Of a DNA stretch of 13,545 nt, positions 4,593-13,545 are shown in pieces. Position 1 is the stretch's first letter. Every line of letters starts with the position of its first letter. Made by a program: the position numbers and the translations under genes. The DNA is from a bacterium (GTDB lineage: Bacteria > JAMCPX01). Below the pieces are notes generated by a model that worked only from the letters and a program-made list of their open reading frames with translations, was not told the origin of the DNA and did no database searches. The stretch covers positions 1-13,545 of the forward strand of contig JAJYJX010000026.1 in assembly GCA_021789095.1 (NCBI GenBank). Direction: 5' to 3'.

Positions 4593-4678
4593 TAAACCCC
4601 GTTAGGAGTTCCTTAATCAGAGGCGGATCTTTCATAAAAGTGAAGAGTTACAAACATTCAAACTTCTAACGGGGTAAA
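4593..4678. repeat. Short inverted-repeat element, copy 1 (TAAA-CCCCGTTAG...GGGG-TAAA)
   Basis: 15-base arms, ACCCCGTTAGGAGTT (4596-4610) and AACTTCTAACGGGGT (4661-4675), are complementary except for one G-T pair. The CCCC...GGGG core is flanked on both sides by TAAA in direct orientation (4593-4596 and 4675-4678). Copy 2 at 12573-12676 has the same ends but a different interior. It is too short to code. It looks like a MITE or REP-like non-autonomous element. Confidence 0.75.
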
Positions 4679-4806
4679 AATTCGTTACAATAGTAAACAA
4701 TATTTGGCCAATTTTAAACATTTATTGGCTTCAGCTATAATTTGCCGTTTAATTGCAATATATTAACCCGAAAAATGCAATAAGGAAGTCTGCTTACTCA
4801 CTCGGG

Positions 4807-4832
4807 GCACCCATCCGGGGGATGGGTTGTGC
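4807..4832. other. Strong hairpin upstream of the export operon
   Basis: ACCCATCC-GGG-GGATGGGT (4809-4827) is a perfect 8-bp stem with a 3-base loop. Alternatively GCAC (4807-4810) can pair with GTGC (4829-4832) around a CCATCC/GGATGG stem with a GTT bulge. It stands out as GC-rich in AT-rich surroundings. A run of six T lies about 20 bases downstream, too far for a standard intrinsic terminator. It could be a protein-binding dyad, a small-RNA structure or another dispersed repeat. Confidence 0.5.
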
Positions 4833-4923
4833 GATCCACCTAAGATATATACGTTTTTTGTTATAAAGGATGTTAAAGTCCTCTGTAAGTTTATATGCAG
4901 TCGCCTTTCATATTGTTTTTGCT

Positions 4924-4940
4924 GATATTCGAAGAATATC
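4924..4940. promoter_or_regulatory. Perfect dyad, candidate enhancer site for a sigma-54 activator
   Basis: GATATTC-GAA-GAATATC is a perfect 7-bp inverted repeat with a 3-base spacer. Its centre (4932) is about 116 bp upstream of the transcription start predicted from the sigma-54 promoter, within the usual -80 to -150 range of bacterial enhancer-binding protein sites. The activator gene is not in this window. Confidence 0.5.
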
Positions 4941-5021
4941 TTTGTTTGACGCAGGCTTATCGCTCATTACTCAAACTTCCTTATTTTTGAAACGCATTTT
5001 TCAGGTTAAGCAAATTTGTTT

Positions 5022-5037
5022 TGGCATAAATATTGCC
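5022..5037 (+). promoter_or_regulatory. Sigma-54 (RpoN) promoter of the export operon
   Basis: TGGCATAAATATTGCC fits the -24/-12 consensus TGGCAC-R-N4-TTGCW with the exact GG-to-GC spacing; the differences are T for C at the sixth base and C for W at the last. The expected start of transcription is near 5048, giving an 88-base leader to the ATG at 5137. It is the only such match I found in an intergenic region of the window. Confidence 0.72.
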
Positions 5038-5107
5038 TCATATATATTTATGGCAGATATTTTTGCTGTTCCGTTTTATGATATAAAATACAGGCGGAGG
5101 TGTTTTA

Positions 5108-5152
5108 TTGATTGACAGTGTAAGTTCTGGTGATATATGGTTAACTGTATGA
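5108..5152 (+). CDS. Possible 14-codon leader peptide coupled to the export operon
   Basis: The best Shine-Dalgarno sequence in the leader, GGAGGTG (5096-5102), is 5 bases upstream of a TTG codon opening a 14-codon frame. Its TGA (5150-5152) overlaps the ATG at 5149 as ATGA, the usual layout for translational coupling. ATG 5149 begins the compact signal peptide MKIANKLFLF. TTG is a rare start and the frame is very short, so this is a candidate only. Confidence 0.3.
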   Translation: MIDSVSSGDIWLTV

Positions 5153-6267
5153 AAATAGCAAATAAATTATTTTTGTTTGTATTGTTATTTTTATCATCTG
5201 TTAGCCCGCTGCATGCGCAGCAATATGTAAGTGAAGGAGCATGGGCAGTCGGTCTGGTAAGAGGCCTTGACTGGGAGAGCAAGGGTATACCGGCACAGCC
5301 GTCTTTGATGGACTATTTTGATCTGCTGTCAGGCAGAAACTTCGTAAATGTCGATCTGAAAACATACGCAACAAGACTCGGTGTAATGCCGGAGACCCTT
5401 ACTTACAATGTAAACCTTGCACACAGCGGCAGGTACCGTCTTATAGCTTATGTTTACGGCAATCCGGTTATGTTTACGGTTGACGAAGAGCCGACTGCAT
5501 CATCTGCGATATCAAACGGATGGAACTTCGAAGATATGGGTACATTGGTCTTAAAAAGAGGTGTACACAGATTGAGTATTACCGTGCCCAGAGGCAGCTC
5601 AATAGGGGCGGTATATCTCAGTTCATTGGCTGTCGATGCAATACAGCCCAAGGATGGATGGGTTGCCAGTAAGGTCCTTGATTATGGTACCCAGGCAAGT
5701 ACAATGGCAATGGCAATGGAGGCAGCCGATAAATTGCCTCTCAAAGCCCGTATACCTACAACAATAAAAACCGGTGCAAATGTGCGTGAATTTATGTTCC
5801 AGTTACCTGCAGACCCGGTTATAAATTTCAGTATGCTGTTTGCAAGCGCATCAAAGGGTTATATGATGGTGGATAATTCCATCGTTATCACCTATGAAAC
5901 TTCAGGCGGCCGGACGCCGTTGAACCTGAAGACAATCAGCCTTGGTCCGGGACAGCATATCGCATACCTTAAGGTACTATCCGGTCAGCCGCCCTATGCG
6001 TTCGGCATATATCAGCATAACGATTCTCCGGATGCCTATGTGGCACTGATGAGATCCATGGGGTACAACGTGGGATTCGCATACCAGCCGGTACCCTATT
6101 ATGTTGCACGTTCATTGATCGGACAATTGATCGCGAGGGTGGTAAAGAAAAAGCCTTCGGAAGAAATTTATCTTACGGGAATAGAAGCGAAGGAAACTGA
6201 ATTGCCTTCGCAGATGGTTCTGAGAACGTACAAAGAACCAATCAGTCCGATGATACCTTTTGAATAA
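5137..6267 (+). CDS. Secreted protein of unknown family, first gene of the export operon
   Basis: The 376-residue product has a Sec signal peptide, with a hydrophobic core at about 11-22 and probable cleavage after L-H-A27; no lipobox is present. I do not recognise the family. The mature protein is rich in beta-strand patterns. Two stretches (about 88-165 and 225-300) have alternating hydrophobic strands and a 'G.HR/G.HIAYL' turn reminiscent of jelly-roll carbohydrate-binding modules: one around SGRYRLIAYVYG...LKRGVHRLSITV, the other around LNLKTISLGPGQHIAYLKVL. This is suggestive, not a domain assignment. ATG 5137 has GGTGA 3 bases upstream; ATG 5149 is the alternative, giving 372 residues, coupled to the leader frame. 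It begins the six-gene operon, 8 bp before the next gene. A periplasmic or surface glycan-binding role is inferred. Confidence 0.8.
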   Translation: MVNCMKIANKLFLFVLLFLSSVSPLHAQQYVSEGAWAVGLVRGLDWESKGIPAQPSLMDYFDLLSGRNFVNVDLKTYATRLGVMPETLTYNVNLAHSGRYRLIAYVYGNPVMFTVDEEPTASSAISNGWNFEDMGTLVLKRGVHRLSITVPRGSSIGAVYLSSLAVDAIQPKDGWVASKVLDYGTQASTMAMAMEAADKLPLKARIPTTIKTGANVREFMFQLPADPVINFSMLFASASKGYMMVDNSIVITYETSGGRTPLNLKTISLGPGQHIAYLKVLSGQPPYAFGIYQHNDSPDAYVALMRSMGYNVGFAYQPVPYYVARSLIGQLIARVVKKKPSEEIYLTGIEAKETELPSQMVLRTYKEPISPMIPFE

Positions 6268-6275
6268 ATATTGCT

Positions 6276-6818
6276 ATGAAGCACATCGTTATACTATTGG
6301 GAATATTGCTGTTTTCTTACAGTGCGGCTTTCGGTGACGAACTTGTTTATTCACAGGATGGTTTTGGCCTTGCACAGGGTTCAAGTGTTGCAATAGCTCC
6401 TTTCCAGGATCTTACGCGTTCGCTGGCTGTAGGCGATAAATTTGCAGGCTATATTGCACAGGCACTGAAACAGGAAGGAACAATACGTATTATCGGGGAG
6501 GATCAGTTTAAAACAAGCCTTGCCTATAACAGGTTTAAGCAAGGGCTTTCTGTTGACAGATCAATTGCCCAGAAAATAGGACAGCAGCTCGGGGTAAACT
6601 ATGTGATATTCGGCAGTGTTATAGAGTATGGCTACGAGCTTGCACCAGACGGTAAGAAGACGCTGCCTATTGCGGGAGTGGATGTAAGAATAGTAAGTGT
6701 GAATTCCGGAAGGATTGTGTTTGCAGGCTCTTTTGCAACGGAGGGTTCACCGGGCAGTCAGCTTGACAATGTTGCAATGGAAGCTGCAAAGGCATTTTAT
6801 GACAGAGTGAGACAATGA
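6276..6818 (+). CDS. CsgG/TolB-N-like periplasmic protein
   Basis: The 180-residue protein begins with a signal peptide (MKHIVILLGILLFSYSAAFG, no lipobox cysteine). The mature part follows the CsgG/TolB-N/LpoB-like alpha-beta pattern. A strand SVAIAPFQDLT (about 38-48) is followed by a helix, then RIIGEDQF, a helix, AQKIGQQLGVNYVIFGSVIEYG (about 99-120) and a final strand-turn-strand (VDVRIVSVNSGRIVFAGSFAT). It lacks the transmembrane hairpins that would make it a full CsgG-type pore by length, so an accessory periplasmic role is more likely. The start lies 8 bp after the upstream stop with little ribosome binding site, and its TGA overlaps the next ATG (ATGA), so these genes are translationally coupled. 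Confidence 0.75.
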   Translation: MKHIVILLGILLFSYSAAFGDELVYSQDGFGLAQGSSVAIAPFQDLTRSLAVGDKFAGYIAQALKQEGTIRIIGEDQFKTSLAYNRFKQGLSVDRSIAQKIGQQLGVNYVIFGSVIEYGYELAPDGKKTLPIAGVDVRIVSVNSGRIVFAGSFATEGSPGSQLDNVAMEAAKAFYDRVRQ

Positions 6819-7852
6819 GATCTGGGAGATCCGGGCAATTCTGGATAAGATTAATTGCAGCAATCTTTTTATTTTTTACGGGCTGTGAGGCCCCGGTATC
6901 AACAAATTTTCTTATACCGCCTGCCAGTGTTAACAATATAAGCTGCATTGCGGTTCTACCGCTGAAAAACGACACACAGAATCCGAATGCAGGCAGCATA
7001 ATTTCTGATGTCCTTTCTATAGATCTTATGAAGTACGGCGGATTTAATGTTATGGACAGGATGGAGGTTGAAAGGGTTTTAAAGGAAAGGGACATATTCA
7101 CGCCAGACGGCATATCGCCCAATGACGCACAGGGTGCAGGTATCATACTTGGAGTACAGGCTGTTTTTACAGGAGAAGTGAAAGAGTACTTCTATAAGCC
7201 GTCAAGCCTGGCAACGCAGGGTGCAGTTCCGACAGTCAGTTTAAGCCTGTCTCTTATTGATGCTGCAACAGGCCAGGTTATTTGGACAGGCAACGGCACA
7301 TTCACACCTTCAGGTTTAATCGCTGCTGGAACGACACCGATTACAGATGTAGTTCAGGAAGGAGTGTCTGAACTTCTTGATACGTTCTACGACGGAATAG
7401 GCCCAAGACCCGCAACACCATCAAGGGTATGCTGGTATGATCCTAATACCCTATTTGCGAGGCTCATTGTTACCAACCAGCCAGCACCACAGCAGCCTCA
7501 GGCACAACCACAGCCTTCGCCGGGTGCCTCACAACAGCAGGTAGCTTCGGTACAACAACCTGAATATAAGCCTCAGGTGCAGGTTCCTCCGGCAAAGGTA
7601 TCGGTACTGAATGCAAGCGGCAACCCCAAGGCATCAATGCTGATAGGTGTTACTCTTATTAAGAACAAGATAAATGTCGTAAATGTAAGTGTAGAAAAAT
7701 CTGCAAAGCCAAAAACTACGATATACTACAGGCCTGATTATTATGACCAAGCTCTTCGTATTGCAAAATTGTTAAAGAAGAAGCCTCAGCTTGTTCAGTC
7801 AGGGGCATACAAATGGGATATAACGCTTATTGTCGGCAGGGACTTAAGGTAG
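6815..7852 (+). CDS. Lipoprotein with CsgG-like domain fused to a LytR_C domain
   Basis: The 345-residue protein has a lipoprotein signal peptide ending F-F-T-G-C24; E at +2 does not match the inner-membrane retention signal, so outer-membrane anchoring is likely. Residues ~42-195 have the CsgG pattern: IAVLPLKNDTQ, then GFNVMDRMEVERVLKERD, AGIILGVQAVFTGEVKEY and VSLSLSLIDAATGQVIWTG. A Q/P-rich linker (about 222-258) leads to a C-terminal LytR_C-type domain (about 260-345): KVSVLNASGN, TTIYYRPDYYDQALRIAKLL and WDITLIVGRD. LytR_C domains are found at the C-terminus of LytR-CpsA-Psr wall-glycan transferases and also alone. A CsgG-LytR_C pairing is unusual to my knowledge. It overlaps the upstream gene by 4 bp. 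A role in outer-membrane secretion or in docking envelope glycan is inferred. Confidence 0.82.
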   Translation: MRSGRSGQFWIRLIAAIFLFFTGCEAPVSTNFLIPPASVNNISCIAVLPLKNDTQNPNAGSIISDVLSIDLMKYGGFNVMDRMEVERVLKERDIFTPDGISPNDAQGAGIILGVQAVFTGEVKEYFYKPSSLATQGAVPTVSLSLSLIDAATGQVIWTGNGTFTPSGLIAAGTTPITDVVQEGVSELLDTFYDGIGPRPATPSRVCWYDPNTLFARLIVTNQPAPQQPQAQPQPSPGASQQQVASVQQPEYKPQVQVPPAKVSVLNASGNPKASMLIGVTLIKNKINVVNVSVEKSAKPKTTIYYRPDYYDQALRIAKLLKKKPQLVQSGAYKWDITLIVGRDLR

Positions 7853-7871
7853 TGTTAAGCGGAGAAATTAA

Positions 7872-9014
7872 ATGAAATGGATTGGTTTATTTTTTGTCGT
7901 AGTATCGGTTATCGGATGGATCTCGGTATCTGATAATGCACTTGCCCAGCAGGACGATAAACATTTGTTCAAAGCTTACCTGTCTTTAAGTGATGCATAT
8001 GATTCGAATGTTTTAAAAGCCGGTGAACAGTCGGCAGAGAAAGGTGATAATATTATTTATGTTCAACCGTCGCTGTCGGTGCTGCTGCCGTTCAGGTTTG
8101 GGGCGGACCTTAATGTGGATTATACATTTACGTACTTAAAATACAGTAAGTTTTCAGTTTATGATACCTATTATAATGATTTAAACGCTTCACTTAATTT
8201 CTATCCCGTAAAGAATCTTGTATTCGGAATCCTCGATTCTTACACGGTTGTGCCGATTTCACCCCAGCTGCCCACCTTTGCGGCCACCAATATAACGCAG
8301 GAAAATTACCTTGACCCGTACATTACCTACGATTTTTATATAACGCCGAGGTTTTATCTCAATGTCCGGTATGATTATATCAAGGTTGATTTCCCGGGCT
8401 CGCTTGGCATAGCATACACGGTCAGTCAGCCGCAGATCAGCGCTGCCGTACTTCTGAACCATTACCTGAAGATAAAACCCGGATTCAAATACATATCCCA
8501 GACATTCACGGCGTCATCCATTGGGACAATCAATCAATCCGAGCCTTTTATAGAGATTGATATAGCCAATGGTTCACGATTGTCTTTTACGGGAAGCTAT
8601 GGCTATCTGGCATTCAGCTTTACCAATACCTCCCAGTCCGGGAGTATATACCTCGCAAACCTTACGTATAAACCAGATGACAGACTCAACGCGGATATAT
8701 ATGTGCACGGTTCAAAGCTATTTGATATATTCGGCAGGCTGTACACGCAATTTGAGGTCGGCCTGGATGCGAGGTATAATCTTACGGAGCGAGTATCAAC
8801 AAATGCTGAAATAAAGTATCTGAAATTGAAATATGCAGGAGAGAATTATTATACGGACGCATCGGGAGGAGATATAGGAATAAATTACAGGTTTATACGG
8901 TGGTCTGAATTGTTTGCAACGTATTACTATTATGATAATAAACCGGAGACTTCAAATGGCTCTCAATACCAGGATTCGCGAATACTCGTTGGCATCCGTG
9001 CTGGACTCCTGTAA
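7872..9014 (+). CDS. Outer-membrane beta-barrel protein of a polysaccharide export operon
   Basis: The 380-residue protein has a signal peptide ending A-L-A25 and then many amphipathic strands with aromatic girdles (YVQPSLSVLLPFRF, LNVDYTFTYLKYSKF, YNDLNASLNFYPVKNLVFGI, FYLNVRYDYIKVDF, RLSFTGSYGYLAF, RLNADIYVHGSKLFD). The segment LSLSDAYDSNVLKAG (about 35-49) resembles the 'DSNV' opening of the EpsL/BBP2_2 barrels found in exopolysaccharide operons. It ends in GIRAGLL rather than a terminal phenylalanine. ATG 7872 has GGAG at 7861-7864. The last 59 bp overlap the next gene's 5' end. It probably forms the outer-membrane channel or a partner of the Wza-like protein. Confidence 0.82.
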   Translation: MKWIGLFFVVVSVIGWISVSDNALAQQDDKHLFKAYLSLSDAYDSNVLKAGEQSAEKGDNIIYVQPSLSVLLPFRFGADLNVDYTFTYLKYSKFSVYDTYYNDLNASLNFYPVKNLVFGILDSYTVVPISPQLPTFAATNITQENYLDPYITYDFYITPRFYLNVRYDYIKVDFPGSLGIAYTVSQPQISAAVLLNHYLKIKPGFKYISQTFTASSIGTINQSEPFIEIDIANGSRLSFTGSYGYLAFSFTNTSQSGSIYLANLTYKPDDRLNADIYVHGSKLFDIFGRLYTQFEVGLDARYNLTERVSTNAEIKYLKLKYAGENYYTDASGGDIGINYRFIRWSELFATYYYYDNKPETSNGSQYQDSRILVGIRAGLL

Positions 9015-9864
9015 AGTTATCCTTCCGGTACTGGTTTTGCTATTCACTGCCCCTGCGGGTCTTCATGCGCAGGGTGAATACCTTGTAGGTCCCGGAGATG
9101 TGCTTCATGTGGAGGTTTTTGGAGAAAAAGACCTTTCAGGAGATGTAACTGTTTCGCAGGACGGTACAATAAAAAATATCCTTCTTGGCGATGTCAATGT
9201 TCAGGGCCTTACAACAGTCCAGATAGAAGATCTGCTTGCAAAGGATCTGGGCAAGGATTACCTTGTAAATCCTAAAGTTTCCGTTTCTGTAACAGACTAC
9301 AGAAGCCACAAAGTATATGTTCTTGGCGAGATCGACAAACCAGGCACCTATGCGCTTACGACAGACAGCAAGCTGCTGGACATACTTCTTAAAGCCGGCG
9401 GACCAACATCAAATGCGGGCGATAATGTATCAATACTGCGCCGTGAAAATGATACGCTTATGCATATAAAAGTGGACATCACAAGGCTCTTTGTCGACGG
9501 GGACCTGTCACAGAATATTCCCATAAAAGACGGTGATATAATATACGTGTCAAGAGAAGAAAAAGGCAATATTACCAGCAGGTTCTATGAGAAAAGGCTG
9601 AACCTTTTCTATGTCGTTGGTGAAGTCAAATCGCCGGGCGCTTATGAGCTTCACGAGGGCTATACAGTACTCAATGCCATATTGCAGGCAGGAGGTTTTA
9701 CGGATTATGCGAAAAAGAACGGGGTAATGCTCGTCAGGTATGAGAACGGGGCTAAGAAGGTTTACAATCTTAAGATGGGCGATATTATGAACAAAGGGGA
9801 CATTGCAAAAGACATGCACATACAGGCAGCAGATCTGATTATTGTGCCGGAAAGCTTGTTTTAG
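8956..9864 (+). CDS. Wza-type polysaccharide export protein (Poly_export + two SLBB)
   Basis: From ATG 8956 the protein has 302 residues. I prefer this start because GGAGA (8944-8948) lies 7 bases upstream; the frame is open to 8914, and a GTG near 8996 would give a shorter signal peptide. The signal peptide core is VILPVLVLLFTAPAGLHAQ, without a lipobox. The Poly_export domain (about 41-115) begins GEYLVGPGDVLHVEVFGE. Two SLBB domains follow, each with the V.GE...PG.Y.L signature (122-134 and 220-232). It lacks the extra C-terminal amphipathic helix of E. coli Wza, so the outer-membrane pore may be supplied by the neighbouring beta-barrel. It overlaps the barrel gene by 59 bp and touches the kinase gene (TAG directly followed by ATG). 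Role: periplasmic conduit for secreted polysaccharide. Confidence 0.9.
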   Translation: MALNTRIREYSLASVLDSCKVILPVLVLLFTAPAGLHAQGEYLVGPGDVLHVEVFGEKDLSGDVTVSQDGTIKNILLGDVNVQGLTTVQIEDLLAKDLGKDYLVNPKVSVSVTDYRSHKVYVLGEIDKPGTYALTTDSKLLDILLKAGGPTSNAGDNVSILRRENDTLMHIKVDITRLFVDGDLSQNIPIKDGDIIYVSREEKGNITSRFYEKRLNLFYVVGEVKSPGAYELHEGYTVLNAILQAGGFTDYAKKNGVMLVRYENGAKKVYNLKMGDIMNKGDIAKDMHIQAADLIIVPESLF

Positions 9865-11718
9865 ATGACTTCATCATTACCTGATACAAGAAATGATTTA
9901 GTATACTATTTAGAACTTTTGTACCAGCGCCGCCTGCTTTTTGCCATAGTGTTTGCTGTTACCATGCTGATGATTGTAATAGGTTTTGCCGTGACTCCTC
10001 CGACGTATACCGCAAGGGCGAAACTGCTAATTGAACCGGAACATTACACAAACATTAATACGGGGAACCAGGAACAGGAGCCGCAGACTTTTTATTTCCA
10101 GACGCAGCTTGAACTTGTGAGAAGCGAACCTATATTTACCCTCGCAGCAACCAGCATCGGGGTACAGAGAGGAACACGTGATTTCGATGTCATGGTCAAC
10201 AGCCTGAGAAGGGACGTTTCTGTGGAGCGTGTTCAGGATTCAAGGATATTCATAATTTCCGTGAAATCACGCAGCCCTTCATTTTCAGCCCGTGCAGCCA
10301 ACGCCGTAGCAGACGGCTACATACAGTTTTTGAATGAACAGAAAAAGCAGCAGATAAACGATGTTACCATGTGGTTGCAGGGAGAGCTGACATCACTGAA
10401 GAACAAGGTGGAGAAGTCAGAGATGGAGTTGATAAAATACATTGAACAACAGGAGGCAACCAGTAGCGGAGACTCCATAATGTTTTTCGGCGACCCTTCT
10501 GATAATGCCGGCACGAAGGCATTGTCGGAACTCGAAACAAAGTATATCACGCTCCAGATAGAGCTGACAAACATGCTGCAGAAATATAAGGACAAATACC
10601 CACTGGTTGTCCAGATGCAAAACGACATCAAGGGGCTTAACATAAGGATCAACATGATGAAGCAGGCAATGCTCGAGGCAAACAAAAAACGGATAAAATA
10701 CATCATGTTAAACAGGGATGCAGAACTTAGCAAGGACCTGTACAGTATGCTGACAAAGGAACTGAAGGAAGTGGATGTGTTCGGACAGATCGGCTTTCCT
10801 ACAGCTGCAATTATAGAGCATGCCAATAAGCCCATGAGAAGATCGGACCAGGGTTTGATATTCTGGCTGTTGTTTGGTTTGTTTGCATCAACGATTGCGG
10901 GAATTGCTTCTGCAATTGTTGCGGACCAGATAGACAGCAGCATAAAGGGAGAAATGGATGTTGAACGGTTCATAAAATATCCCATTATAGGCGCTCTGCC
11001 GTTCATGGAAGAAATCAGGGGCGGCGGACCTAATAAACTGATAGGTATTCTTAACAGTGCATCGTCCCAGGTTTATACGGAGGCACTGAGGCTCATAAGA
11101 ACAAACCTTAAATATTCTTTCGTGGCAAAATCAGGGAAAGTATTGCTTGTGACATCCACAGGGGAGAACGAAGGAAAAACGACCATGTCGGCAAGTCTCG
11201 CTTATATACTGTCTATCACAGGGTCAAAGGTATTGCTTCTCGACGCCGATGTCAAAAGACCTGCAATCCACAAATTTTTCAACAGCGATCAAACGCCCGG
11301 CTTTACGGAATTACTGATAGATGAAAAGCTTAATATCGCAGATATAGTTAAACACAGCAATTATAATTCCCTCCATTACCTTACCGCAGGCAGGCAGCCG
11401 CCAAATTTTGCAGAGCTGATTGACTCACCGCGTTCAAAGGAATTCATAGAAATGCTCAGGACAAACTTTGATTATGTTATCATAGATTCACCGCCCATAG
11501 GTATTATTTCAGATGCCGCAATACTTTCGTCCCAGGTGGATGGTGTGATGTTTGTTATCAAGGCCAATGGCTATCCCAGGGAGCATATCATGAGGAGCAT
11601 CAAGGCACTTGCATCGATCAATGCAAAAATAGCGGGTGTTGTCTTGACATATCTGGAAAAAGGCAAAAGCTATTACAGGGACTACTATTACAGGAAGGGT
11701 TATTACCATGAACGGTGA
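9865..11718 (+). CDS. Wzz-type chain-length protein fused to a BY-kinase (Wzc-like)
   Basis: The 617-residue inner-membrane protein sets chain length and drives export of polysaccharide. TM1 is at about 24-44 and TM2 at about 331-352, enclosing a periplasmic coiled Wzz domain; a proline/arginine stretch (NKPMRRSD) precedes TM2 as in Wzz proteins. The cytoplasmic bacterial tyrosine kinase domain has Walker A STGENEGKTT (431-440), Walker A' LDADVKRP (459-466) and Walker B VIIDSPP (538-544). The Walker A has E-N where P-G is common. The C-terminus carries a tyrosine cluster (Y603, Y604, Y607-Y609, Y613, Y614), the expected autophosphorylation tail. All parts are in one chain, as in proteobacterial Wzc, not split as in Firmicutes. 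It starts directly after the export gene's stop. No cognate low-molecular-weight tyrosine phosphatase gene is in the window. Confidence 0.93.
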   Translation: MTSSLPDTRNDLVYYLELLYQRRLLFAIVFAVTMLMIVIGFAVTPPTYTARAKLLIEPEHYTNINTGNQEQEPQTFYFQTQLELVRSEPIFTLAATSIGVQRGTRDFDVMVNSLRRDVSVERVQDSRIFIISVKSRSPSFSARAANAVADGYIQFLNEQKKQQINDVTMWLQGELTSLKNKVEKSEMELIKYIEQQEATSSGDSIMFFGDPSDNAGTKALSELETKYITLQIELTNMLQKYKDKYPLVVQMQNDIKGLNIRINMMKQAMLEANKKRIKYIMLNRDAELSKDLYSMLTKELKEVDVFGQIGFPTAAIIEHANKPMRRSDQGLIFWLLFGLFASTIAGIASAIVADQIDSSIKGEMDVERFIKYPIIGALPFMEEIRGGGPNKLIGILNSASSQVYTEALRLIRTNLKYSFVAKSGKVLLVTSTGENEGKTTMSASLAYILSITGSKVLLLDADVKRPAIHKFFNSDQTPGFTELLIDEKLNIADIVKHSNYNSLHYLTAGRQPPNFAELIDSPRSKEFIEMLRTNFDYVIIDSPPIGIISDAAILSSQVDGVMFVIKANGYPREHIMRSIKALASINAKIAGVVLTYLEKGKSYYRDYYYRKGYYHER

Positions 11719-11746
11719 TCCGGTTTAAAACTATTCTATAACCGAT

Positions 11747-12433
11747 ATGGACCTGTTGTCTAAAACGGATTTGTCGACACAATTCTTCCTTGAGCTGCCC
11801 GATAATGCAAGAAATGTCCTGCTTTCAAAAGGGATAAAACGTAGTTTTAAAAAAAGAACATTACTGTTCAGCGAGGGAGAAAAGACAGGCAAACTCTGGA
11901 TAATAAACAAGGGCAGCATACATGTATACAAAACAACCCCTGAGGGCAAGGAAATTACTCTTTATGTTCACAGTAAAGGTTCTGTATTAGGCTTGATGTC
12001 CGTATTGACAGATGATGTTTATTCTGTTTCAGGCGAAGCAATAGAGGATATTGATGTTGTGATAATTGGGAAAAGCGCATTTGCGGAGTTCTTAACAGAG
12101 TATCCAGAAACATCGCTGCAATGGCTGAAGATGATGGCATTCAGGCTAAAGCTTTGTTTTGAAAGGGTGAAGGACATCGGTACTAAAAATGCACAGTTGA
12201 GAATAGCCCAGTTACTTTTAAACCTTAAAACAGAAGATAATGATATCGTTAAACTACCTTTCAGCCAGGACAAGCTTTCGTTGATTATAGGGATAAGGCC
12301 GGAAACATTTTCCAGGGTTTTAAAGCATTTTGAGGACAGCGGTGCCATCCAGAGGCTGGGCAAAAGAGGCTTTAAAATCCTTGATACAGATAAACTTCTC
12401 ATATTCGAAGACATAAACTTATCGATTGTATGA
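11747..12433 (+). CDS. Crp/Fnr-family transcription regulator, not a classical cAMP receptor
   Basis: The 228-residue protein has a cyclic-nucleotide-binding-type beta-barrel (about 30-115), a dimer helix (about 118-150) and a winged helix-turn-helix (about 165-215). Aligned to E. coli CRP, the cAMP phosphate ligands are lost: GEL becomes GLM (81-84) and the R-S-A triad becomes Y-S-V, so cAMP binding of the usual kind is doubtful. There is no N-terminal cysteine cluster (only C137), so it is not an Fe-S FNR either. The recognition helix reads RPETFSR with E186, S189 and R190, the pattern FNR uses to read TTGAT. It follows the kinase gene by 28 bp with no terminator, so it is probably the last gene of the export operon. 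The ATG has no clear ribosome binding site. Its ligand is unknown. Confidence 0.88.
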   Translation: MDLLSKTDLSTQFFLELPDNARNVLLSKGIKRSFKKRTLLFSEGEKTGKLWIINKGSIHVYKTTPEGKEITLYVHSKGSVLGLMSVLTDDVYSVSGEAIEDIDVVIIGKSAFAEFLTEYPETSLQWLKMMAFRLKLCFERVKDIGTKNAQLRIAQLLLNLKTEDNDIVKLPFSQDKLSLIIGIRPETFSRVLKHFEDSGAIQRLGKRGFKILDTDKLLIFEDINLSIV

Positions 12434-12506
12434 GATTGTTTTAAAGTTATCTTAATAAGCACGCTGTTTTTCAACACATCTCCCTGGTTAGTCAATTTAA
12501 TCCTTC

Positions 12507-12530
12507 GGCATGAAAGATAAATGCCTTTTT
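12507..12530 (+). terminator. Weak intrinsic terminator after the Crp/Fnr gene
   Basis: GGCAT (12507-12511) pairs with ATGCC (12521-12525) across a 9-base loop, followed directly by five T (12526-12530). The stem is short, so efficiency is uncertain, but it sits between the regulator's stop and the next promoter elements. Confidence 0.45.
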
Positions 12531-12531
12531 C

Positions 12532-12545
12532 TTGATCTGAATCAA
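12532..12545. promoter_or_regulatory. Perfect FNR-type operator
   Basis: TTGATCTGAATCAA matches the FNR consensus TTGAT-N4-ATCAA at all ten fixed bases. It lies 98 bp after the Crp/Fnr-type gene, whose recognition helix has the E-x-x-S-R residues that read TTGAT in FNR. Its centre is 41.5 bp from the start predicted from the -10 box at 12568, the class II activator position. Confidence 0.75.
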
Positions 12546-12567
12546 TGAAACCTTTTTGTGCTGCGTA

Positions 12568-12573
12568 TATATT
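12568..12573 (+). promoter_or_regulatory. -10 box of an FNR-box class II promoter for the FmdE-like gene
   Basis: TATATT differs from TATAAT at one base. With -12 at 12568 the transcription start is about 12580, exactly 41.5 bp from the operator centre. There is no good -35 box, as usual for activator-dependent promoters. The transcript would start inside the left arm of the inverted-repeat element. Confidence 0.55.
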
Positions 12574-12676
12574 AAACCCCGTTAGAAAGTCCTCCACAAT
12601 TGGATTTCCTGAGGACAGACTGGTCTCGGGCTTAAGTCTTCTGGTGGAAGATGGCGGGATTTTCTAACGGGGTAAA
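12573..12676. repeat. Short inverted-repeat element, copy 2
   Basis: The ends ACCCCGTTAGAAA (12576-12588) and TTTCTAACGGGGT (12661-12673) are perfectly complementary over 13 bases, and pairing continues with mismatches (TCC/GGA; TCCAC at 12593-12597 with GTGGA at 12644-12648). TAAA flanks both sides in direct orientation (12573-12576 and 12673-12676), as in copy 1. The interior shows no evident similarity to copy 1. As RNA it would fold into a long imperfect hairpin in the leader of the FmdE-like gene. Confidence 0.78.
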
Positions 12677-12705
12677 ATCAAAAAAATAAAAAGGAGGATA
12701 CGGTT

Positions 12706-13320
12706 ATGATTAATCCAAAAGAATATCTTGAAACAGGGTTCAAACTTCATGGACACAAGTGTCCTGCAATGCCGCTCGGACTGAGGGCAGGTGCGGCAGC
12801 TATGAACGCCCTTGGCGTGGAGCGTTCCACGGACGGTCAGCTTATGGCCCTTGTTGAGCTCGGGGATGCGCACTGCTCTCACTGCTTTGCAGACGGAGTG
12901 CAGGTGATAACCGGGTGCACATTCGGCAAAGACAACATACACCAGCTCGGGTACGGGAAGTTCGGACTGACCCTTATAGACGTTGCCCGTCAAAAAGCAG
13001 TGCGCGTGGTTCCAAAGGCAGAGGTCCAGACGGCAACCAAAAAGACGGACTTCTTTAAGAATTACCGGGAGAAAGGGATTCCTGCATCAAAGGTGCCGCG
13101 TGATGTCGTGGAGCCGCTCATAGAAAGGGTAATGAGTATGCCTGATGATCAGCTTATGAATATCAGCGAGATATTCGAGTATGAGGTAAAGAAAGGCAAA
13201 GACTCATTTACGTCCTTTGTCTGCGACAAGTGCGGCGACATGGTCGTCGAGAAATACGGGCGTGTTTATGACGGGTTGAAGGTGTGCATCCCGTGTCAGC
13301 AGAAGTTGATGGCCGATTAA
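12706..13320 (+). CDS. FmdE-family protein with C-terminal zinc finger
   Basis: The 204-residue cytoplasmic protein belongs to the family named after subunit E of molybdenum formylmethanofuran dehydrogenase, which is widespread in bacteria that make no methane; its biochemical role is not established. The core (about 1-160) has HGHKCP (15-20) with H15, H17 and C19, the cysteine/histidine run AHCSHC (55-60) and TGCTFGKDN (69-77), which together form a probable metal or ligand pocket. The C-terminal finger has CDKC (C173, C176) and CIPC (C194, C197), matching the treble-clef zinc finger found in some members. The start is secure: AAGGAGG (12691-12697) is 8 bases before the ATG. It is transcribed from the FNR-box promoter through the inverted-repeat element, so expression may respond to redox or anaerobiosis. 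Codon use does not look foreign. Confidence 0.88.
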   Translation: MINPKEYLETGFKLHGHKCPAMPLGLRAGAAAMNALGVERSTDGQLMALVELGDAHCSHCFADGVQVITGCTFGKDNIHQLGYGKFGLTLIDVARQKAVRVVPKAEVQTATKKTDFFKNYREKGIPASKVPRDVVEPLIERVMSMPDDQLMNISEIFEYEVKKGKDSFTSFVCDKCGDMVVEKYGRVYDGLKVCIPCQQKLMAD

Positions 13321-13329
13321 ACAACAATA

Positions 13330-13358
13330 GCAGGGACTGTTTAATAGACAGCCCCTGC
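13330..13358 (+). terminator. Hairpin after the FmdE-like gene
   Basis: GCAGGGACTGT (13330-13340) pairs with ACAGCCCCTGC (13348-13358) with one mismatch and a 7-base loop. It sits 9 bp after the stop codon. No T-run follows, so it may act with Rho or as a 3'-end stabiliser, not as a classic intrinsic terminator. Confidence 0.55.
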
Positions 13359-13399
13359 ACAAGCAAAACATATCCTATTTTGAATATAAAAGGTGCAAT

Positions 13400-13545
13400 A
13401 TGAAGAAAATTATTGGTTCTATGGCTGTTACTTTGTTCCTCGCATTTACCCCTCTAACGGGGTTTACAGGCACAGCTTACACAGATCAGGACTCGGTGCA
13501 TTCAGAGTATATTCCGGATATTTCAGGATATATTCAGGCAAGAGG
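13400..13545 (+). CDS. 5' part of a secreted-protein gene, cut by the window edge
   Basis: ATG 13400, preceded by AAAAGG (about 13388-13393), opens a frame of 48 codons that runs off the window without a stop. It begins with a typical Sec signal peptide: MKK, a hydrophobic core to about residue 22 and probable cleavage near G-T-A26. The visible mature part (YTDQDSVHSEYIPDISGYIQ) is not enough to name a family. The codons for residues 16-23 (F-T-P-L-T-G-F-T) carry a minimal copy of the TAAA-CCCCGTTAG repeat. Confidence 0.7.
   Translation, partial: MKKIIGSMAVTLFLAFTPLTGFTGTAYTDQDSVHSEYIPDISGYIQAR
13445..13466 (-). repeat. Minimal copy of the inverted-repeat element inside signal-peptide codons
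   Basis: Read on the minus strand this 22-mer is TAAA-CCCC-GTTAGA-GGGG-TAAA. It has the same TAAA flanks, the same 13-base left end (TAAACCCCGTTAG) and the same GGGGTAAA right end as copies 1 and 2, with the interior missing. It sits in frame in the coding sequence. Confidence 0.55.

Follow-up and report, generated by a model that had tools for sequence, protein, structure and literature searches.

Short inverted-repeat elements with paired ends and a small GIY-YIG nuclease gene: a candidate family of ultra-small transposons in bacteria

Three short inverted-repeat elements in a 13,545-bp stretch of bacterial DNA (the window) are probably non-autonomous copies, the two long ones hairpin-ended, of an ultra-small transposon that would be moved by a lone GIY-YIG nuclease. 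We infer from sequence comparison that this nuclease would be the catalyst of movement. Its gene lies outside the window, in the same genome, between ends of the same family.

All three elements lie where an earlier note on this DNA had placed them. Exact matches to the 13-mer TAAACCCCGTTAG lie at 4593-4605 (+), 12573-12585 (+), and 13454-13466 (-), and the inverse ends (TTTACCCCGTTAG, minus strand) of the two long copies occupy 4666-4678 and 12664-12676. The features are as follows.

4593..4678, plus strand: copy 1, with TAAA at 4593-4596 and 4675-4678 and a 78-bp core at 4597-4674
12573..12676, plus strand: copy 2, with TAAA at 12573-12576 and 12673-12676 and a 96-bp core at 12577-12672
13445..13466, minus strand: copy 3, with TTTA at 13445-13448, a 14-bp core CCCCGTTAGAGGGG (minus strand) at 13449-13462, and TTTA at 13463-13466
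13400..13545, plus strand: beginning of a porin-like gene, with copy 3 inside its signal peptide, MKKIIGSMAVTLFLAFT-PLTGFT-GTAYTDQ...

The arms of copy 1 (CCCCGTTAGGAGTT / AACTTCTAACGGGG) form the stem of a hairpin (folding z -5.3), and copy 2 likewise folds into a hairpin (z -5.7). Copy 2 lies directly upstream of an FmdE-like ORF (12706-13320) and precedes its start codon; the loci of 2.7 to 3.2 kb that carry this downstream gene in four relatives contained no exact CCCCGTTAG or CTAACGGGG. Two other repeats share the window. A RAYT-like gene (Y1 transposase with a DnaA-type C-terminal HTH) at 59-1107 sits between perfect 28-bp inverted ends, TAGGGGTCAGCCCTTGACATTGGACATT. Another dispersed repeat at 4779-4985 contains CTTAGGTGGATCGCA (minus strand, 4830-4844) and recurs at about five places in the genome, at several of which a CCCCGTTAG element is close by.

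The 22-bp size reported for the minimal copy is right. Relative to orthologs, copy 3 is a net 18-bp in-frame insertion in the signal peptide of the porin-like protein. From the Met to the conserved PDIS/PDVS motif there are 38 residues in the window porin, 32 in orthologs L363 and L365, and 35 in L362; the six additional residues over L363 and L365 fit 14 bp plus 4 bp, or six in-frame codons. Excising copy 3 would leave MKKIIGSMAVTLFLAFTGTAYTDQ, a predicted signal peptide of ordinary look. The reading frame of the porin meets an N stretch at the window end (13545), where contig C143 continues.

Are these elements mobile DNA, and is the flanking TAAA a duplicated target or a fixed part of the element? 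A genome-wide search of the kind that the earlier note had proposed found the 13-mer TAAACCCCGTTAG 42 times in the 2.15-Mb genome, versus 0 for the reversed control, and CCCCGTTAG 125 times, versus 9 in the control. The genome holds about 60 elements, and 61 distinct ones were extracted from the fetched stretches; most have cores of 60 to 125 bp, and 42 of the 61 lie between ORFs. We searched the relatives for the joined flanks of these copies and found empty sites with a single TAAA/TTTA. For example, copy L025 reads ...gattTTTA[element]TTTAttag..., and the corresponding sites in G005 and G004 are element-free (...gattTTTAttgc... and ...gattTTTAcatc...); copy L022 is absent from G001, G003, G006, and G007. 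At copy L016 the sequences had diverged too far for the site to be aligned legibly. The copy number together with the empty sites in other genera bears out the view that the family is mobile.

The flanks also decide between the two readings of TAAA that the note had offered. Among 18 elements with non-TAAA flanks, the two sides agreed in 6 (shuffled mean 1.1, P 0.0002), the matched duplications being TCAA three times, TATG, TTAA, and TGAG. Since flanks match even when they are not TAAA, and since the empty sites carry one copy, TAAA marks a preferred target site of which 4 bp are duplicated, and is not constant element sequence. Copy L031 reads TTTA/TTTA relative to its interior. Neighbours in the tandem elements L067, L087, and L148 share a single tetranucleotide. 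Duplications around nuclease-bearing copies are often imperfect (TTCA/TAAA, TTCA/TTTA).

Analysis of the arms revealed a longer inverted repeat than the 9 paired bases described before. Arm bases 1 to 10 hardly vary. At positions 11, 12, and 13 the base differs among elements, yet the two ends of any one element agree: in the cross-phylum set, pairing at these positions was 0.94, 0.94, and 0.84, versus 0.64, 0.79, and 0.43 with shuffled partners, and all four pair types were seen at position 13. Because positions 11 to 13 covary and pairing is at chance level from position 14 on, the inverted repeat formed by the arms is 13 bp long. Such covariation would be expected if a stem of 13 bp were recognised as a structure; it may also be compatible with a dimer reading each end symmetrically or with one end being copied onto the other.

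A search for an autonomous element with CCCCGTTAG ends, also suggested by the note, led to a locus outside the window that encodes a GIY-YIG nuclease instead of a known transposase.

G000:C172:298-575: nuclease-bearing element (L231), 278 bp, with the gene at C172:298-555 as its only gene

Its two 13-bp inverted ends consist of CCCCGTTAGA plus 3 element-specific bases, and the gene between them codes for an 86-residue GIY-YIG protein (PF01541, E 6.5e-16). The genome has three PF01541 genes; the other two (a 96-residue ORF and a long UvrC-like ORF) are not inside such ends. We regard the 278-bp element as the presumptive autonomous form of the family. GIY-YIG genes inside the same ends also occur in Patescibacteria and Omnitrophota, and in L114 (Yanofskybacteria) two elements with family ends encode small GIY-YIG proteins. 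The right-hand duplication frequently supplies the stop codon (TAA or TGA) of the GIY-YIG ORF. Across 35 homologs, Y5, Y16, G18, R26, H30, and E50 are invariant, residues that we take to fit the GIY-YIG active site. The AlphaFold model (pLDDT 92.9) shows the whole domain followed by a C-terminal helix, and its nearest solved structures, UPF0213 BH0048 and Slx1-Slx4, rank ahead of I-TevI in Foldseek matches with weak E-values (1e-3 to 5e-2) and probability 1.0. Slx1-Slx4 is a nuclease of branched DNA.

How tightly is the nuclease tied to the ends? We searched with this protein 50 genomes selected because they carry the ends, and 89 unrelated genomes. Homologs of any degree were present in 42 of the 50; homologs with E <1e-20 were found in 22 of the 50, compared to 1 of the 89 (P 7e-11), a contrast that may be partly phylogenetic as the comparison genomes belong to other lineages. 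The physical association is stronger evidence than this co-occurrence. The closest homologs (E <1e-20 to the query) mostly have matched inverted ends, whose sequences are of many kinds: close homologs are bounded by CCCCGTTAGAG ends, and less close ones by other mutually matching inverted ends, e.g., CCCTGTTAAATA, GCCCAGTGTAAT, CCCCCACACCAATT, CCGGGTAGTGAAAATTCGAT, and CCCCGCCCTTCCT. Among homologs of intermediate similarity (E 1e-20 to 1e-29), some had no recognisable matched ends in the end-matching test, and for GIY-YIG homologs with E above 1e-15 the end-matching score was within the null. The gene was undetected in several relatives rich in copies, e.g., G004 (an 87% complete MAG).

In the fetched loci, which were scanned for wider end pairs, no transposase gene lay between ends, and a GIY-YIG nuclease was the sole gene type found inside them. 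Long composite elements bounded by two ends were considered as well and proved mostly to be adjoining mini-elements, the exception being the GIY copies of L114. The mini-elements of the genome differ from the 278-bp nuclease element in their interiors and mostly at arm positions 11 to 13, and blastn revealed no GIY homology in their interiors in the fetched loci. Degraded GIY remnants were present only in relatives (L377 and L378), and these attest to decay of such elements by truncation or internal deletion.

Two further groups of GIY-YIG genes came to light. At loci L301, L310, L314, L319, L320, and others, the inverted ends around the GIY-YIG gene are of quite another sequence (CCCCCACACCAATT among them), and each such set may have a mini-element family of its own. 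In other genomes, more distant GIY-YIG genes adjoin tRNA genes (L287, L291, L322, L331, L370, L371, and L373), several with a partial tRNA copy at the other side of the gene, which suggests a related class of nuclease elements inserting into tRNA genes.

The ends are constant across phyla. A scan for the 14-mer TAAACCCCGTTAGA across one genome per species found, among the matches listed, an inverse matching end within ~330 bp at 97 of 113 loci, with titles naming Omnitrophota, Patescibacteria, Nitrospirota (Nitrospirae), Deltaproteobacteria, Phycisphaerae, Cloacimonadota, and others. Spread by viruses was considered and rejected: the 14-mer occurred in 94 viral stretches, yet was paired in only 2 of the 80 checked, compared to the 97 of 113 listed genome loci. 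Phage and plasmid collections held no homolog of the GIY-YIG nuclease.

Like copy 3, elements elsewhere lie in frame within genes, with a hot spot in prepilins. In the TTTA orientation, the ends read TTT-ACC-CCG-TTA-GA, F-T-P-L-(E), and CTA-ACG-GGG-TTT-A, L-T-G-F-(T). The prepilin motif LTG|FT[LM][IVL]E directly follows 17 of 449 distinct ends; where both ends were found, all 14 copies are in frame, with core + 4 a multiple of 3 and the frame open (several of the 14 pairs are related, so that independent events number fewer than 14). Among them are MKITRFTPLEIRRLPKGKLSLTGFTLLELVV (L181) and QKGFTPLEMKSLTGFTLIELILA (L150), and in L114 and L266 the GIY-YIG ORF itself runs into the pilin. The genome that holds the window has one prepilin insertion (L004, NRGFTPLES...LTGFTLLEIL), which is missing from the orthologs in G001, G002, G003, and G006; G004 retains an apparent right end. 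Insertion in the TTTA of the prepilin GFTLIE codons recreates G|FTLIE, and judging from the encoded peptides the mature pilin should be unchanged, with its peptidase site recreated. Of all 128 elements whose ends are exact, 71 have a core + 4 length divisible by 3 (P 2e-7 if independent). This excess of frame-keeping lengths suggests that the elements were shaped by passage through coding sites.

One potential explanation other than a nuclease-driven transposon is that the elements are true MITEs of an ordinary transposase, with the GIY-YIG gene as a passenger, or as a homing nuclease that has moved into one of them. GIY-YIG nucleases are classically homing enzymes, which according to a 2006 survey do not, unlike transposases, recognise their own mobile DNA (PMC1564403), and the interiors of most copies in the genome are not GIY-derived. 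We nevertheless judge this explanation unlikely, given that nuclease and ends co-occur so strongly, that the fetched loci have no transposase gene between the ends, and that the same nuclease clade lies inside many different end sequences that match within each element.

Two other explanations fare far worse. Movement of REP/BIME-like palindromes by a RAYT (Y1) transposase would suit short hairpin elements of high copy number, and the RAYT gene of the window is 3.5 kb from copy 1. That gene, however, has its own 28-bp ends (TAGGGGTCAGCCC...), the elements are flanked by TAAA duplications and have long interiors, and phmmer with the window RAYT over the fetched loci gave 2 matches, neither adjoining an element. 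The note had called the RAYT repeats unrelated; we concur and consider a RAYT origin very improbable. Least credible of all is that the elements are conserved cis-regulatory or structured RNA elements, even though the hairpins are stable and copy 2 precedes a start codon: empty orthologous sites contradict it, copies lie within genes, no Rfam match was found, and orientation to downstream genes is without bias (23 same versus 18 opposite).

A nuclease-driven transposon of this kind resembles several known systems in part. As in MITEs, the elements are short, numerous, bounded by terminal inverted repeats and a target duplication, without a transposase gene of their own, and share ends with a larger gene-bearing element in the same genome (L231, of presumed autonomy); unlike in MITEs, the partner is a lone GIY-YIG nuclease, not a DDE or other known transposase, and part of the arm covaries in sequence. 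Known insertion-sequence families, DDE or other, are defined by a transposase between matching ends, which is lacking here. Rickettsia palindromic elements (RPE) are likewise palindromic, about 100 to 150 bp, and in frame in protein-coding genes (PMC10969869); compared by description, they differ from the present family with its cross-phylum constant ends, 4-bp duplication, nuclease partner, and hot spot at prepilin signal codons. Stand-alone GIY-YIG homing endonucleases are also the sole gene of a mobile element, with catalytic residues that are conserved here, but they move only into the cognate homologous allele, whereas this family has matched inverted ends, target duplications, non-autonomous copies, and about 60 unrelated sites in one genome. 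RAYT/REP and IS200/IS605 systems share single-strand hairpins and many copies; here there is no Y1 transposase flanked by the same palindromes, and duplications are 4 bp. The family is one of MITE or minimal-IS anatomy with an enzyme of the homing-endonuclease class and an RPE-like in-frame habit, and it lacks a defining feature of the homing class and of known IS families.

In the mechanism that we propose, the nuclease would recognise the ends in their paired state, probably folded into a hairpin or cruciform, which would suit a structure-selective Slx1-like fold, and would free or nick the element. It would also make a cut staggered by 4 nt in target DNA, at TAAA-like tetranucleotides; filling of the gaps by host repair would give the 4-bp duplication. 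GIY-YIG enzymes are known as hydrolytic nucleases, so strand joining would need host repair. Copies with matched ends that have lost the gene could move in trans.

The 2006 survey raises the question of whether further GIY-YIG members could be molecular parasites (PMC1564403). In 2024, a study of CPR rRNA genes described insertions that code for GIY-YIG proteins, look like no intron, and, by its authors' account, seem to fall outside spread by homing (PMC11270868); these insertions resemble our elements in their encoded GIY-YIG protein and differ in that the study makes no mention of inverted repeats (0 occurrences). In the open-access papers that our search covered, we found no description of prokaryotic GIY-YIG elements that combine inverted ends with target duplications, or of LTGFTLIE/GFTPLE. 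The novelty of the family rests on this limited search and on our inference that mobility is due to the nuclease.

The enzymes known to drive DNA transposons are of the DDE, HUH, serine, tyrosine, or Cas1 type. We lean toward the view that the family represents a new enzymatic class: a transposon of ~280 bp, present in many bacterial phyla, whose sole gene would be a stand-alone Slx1-like GIY-YIG nuclease recognising structured hairpin ends, with mini-elements whose ends appear tuned for translation and recreate the prepilin peptidase site. If so, the 86-residue GIY-YIG transposon would be among the smallest autonomous elements. It could explain why small "GIY-YIG nuclease family" genes are so numerous in uncultured phyla and might account for the GIY-YIG insertions in CPR rRNA genes that were not attributed to homing. 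The prepilin case would then be a selfish element hidden in a peptide that is normally cut off.
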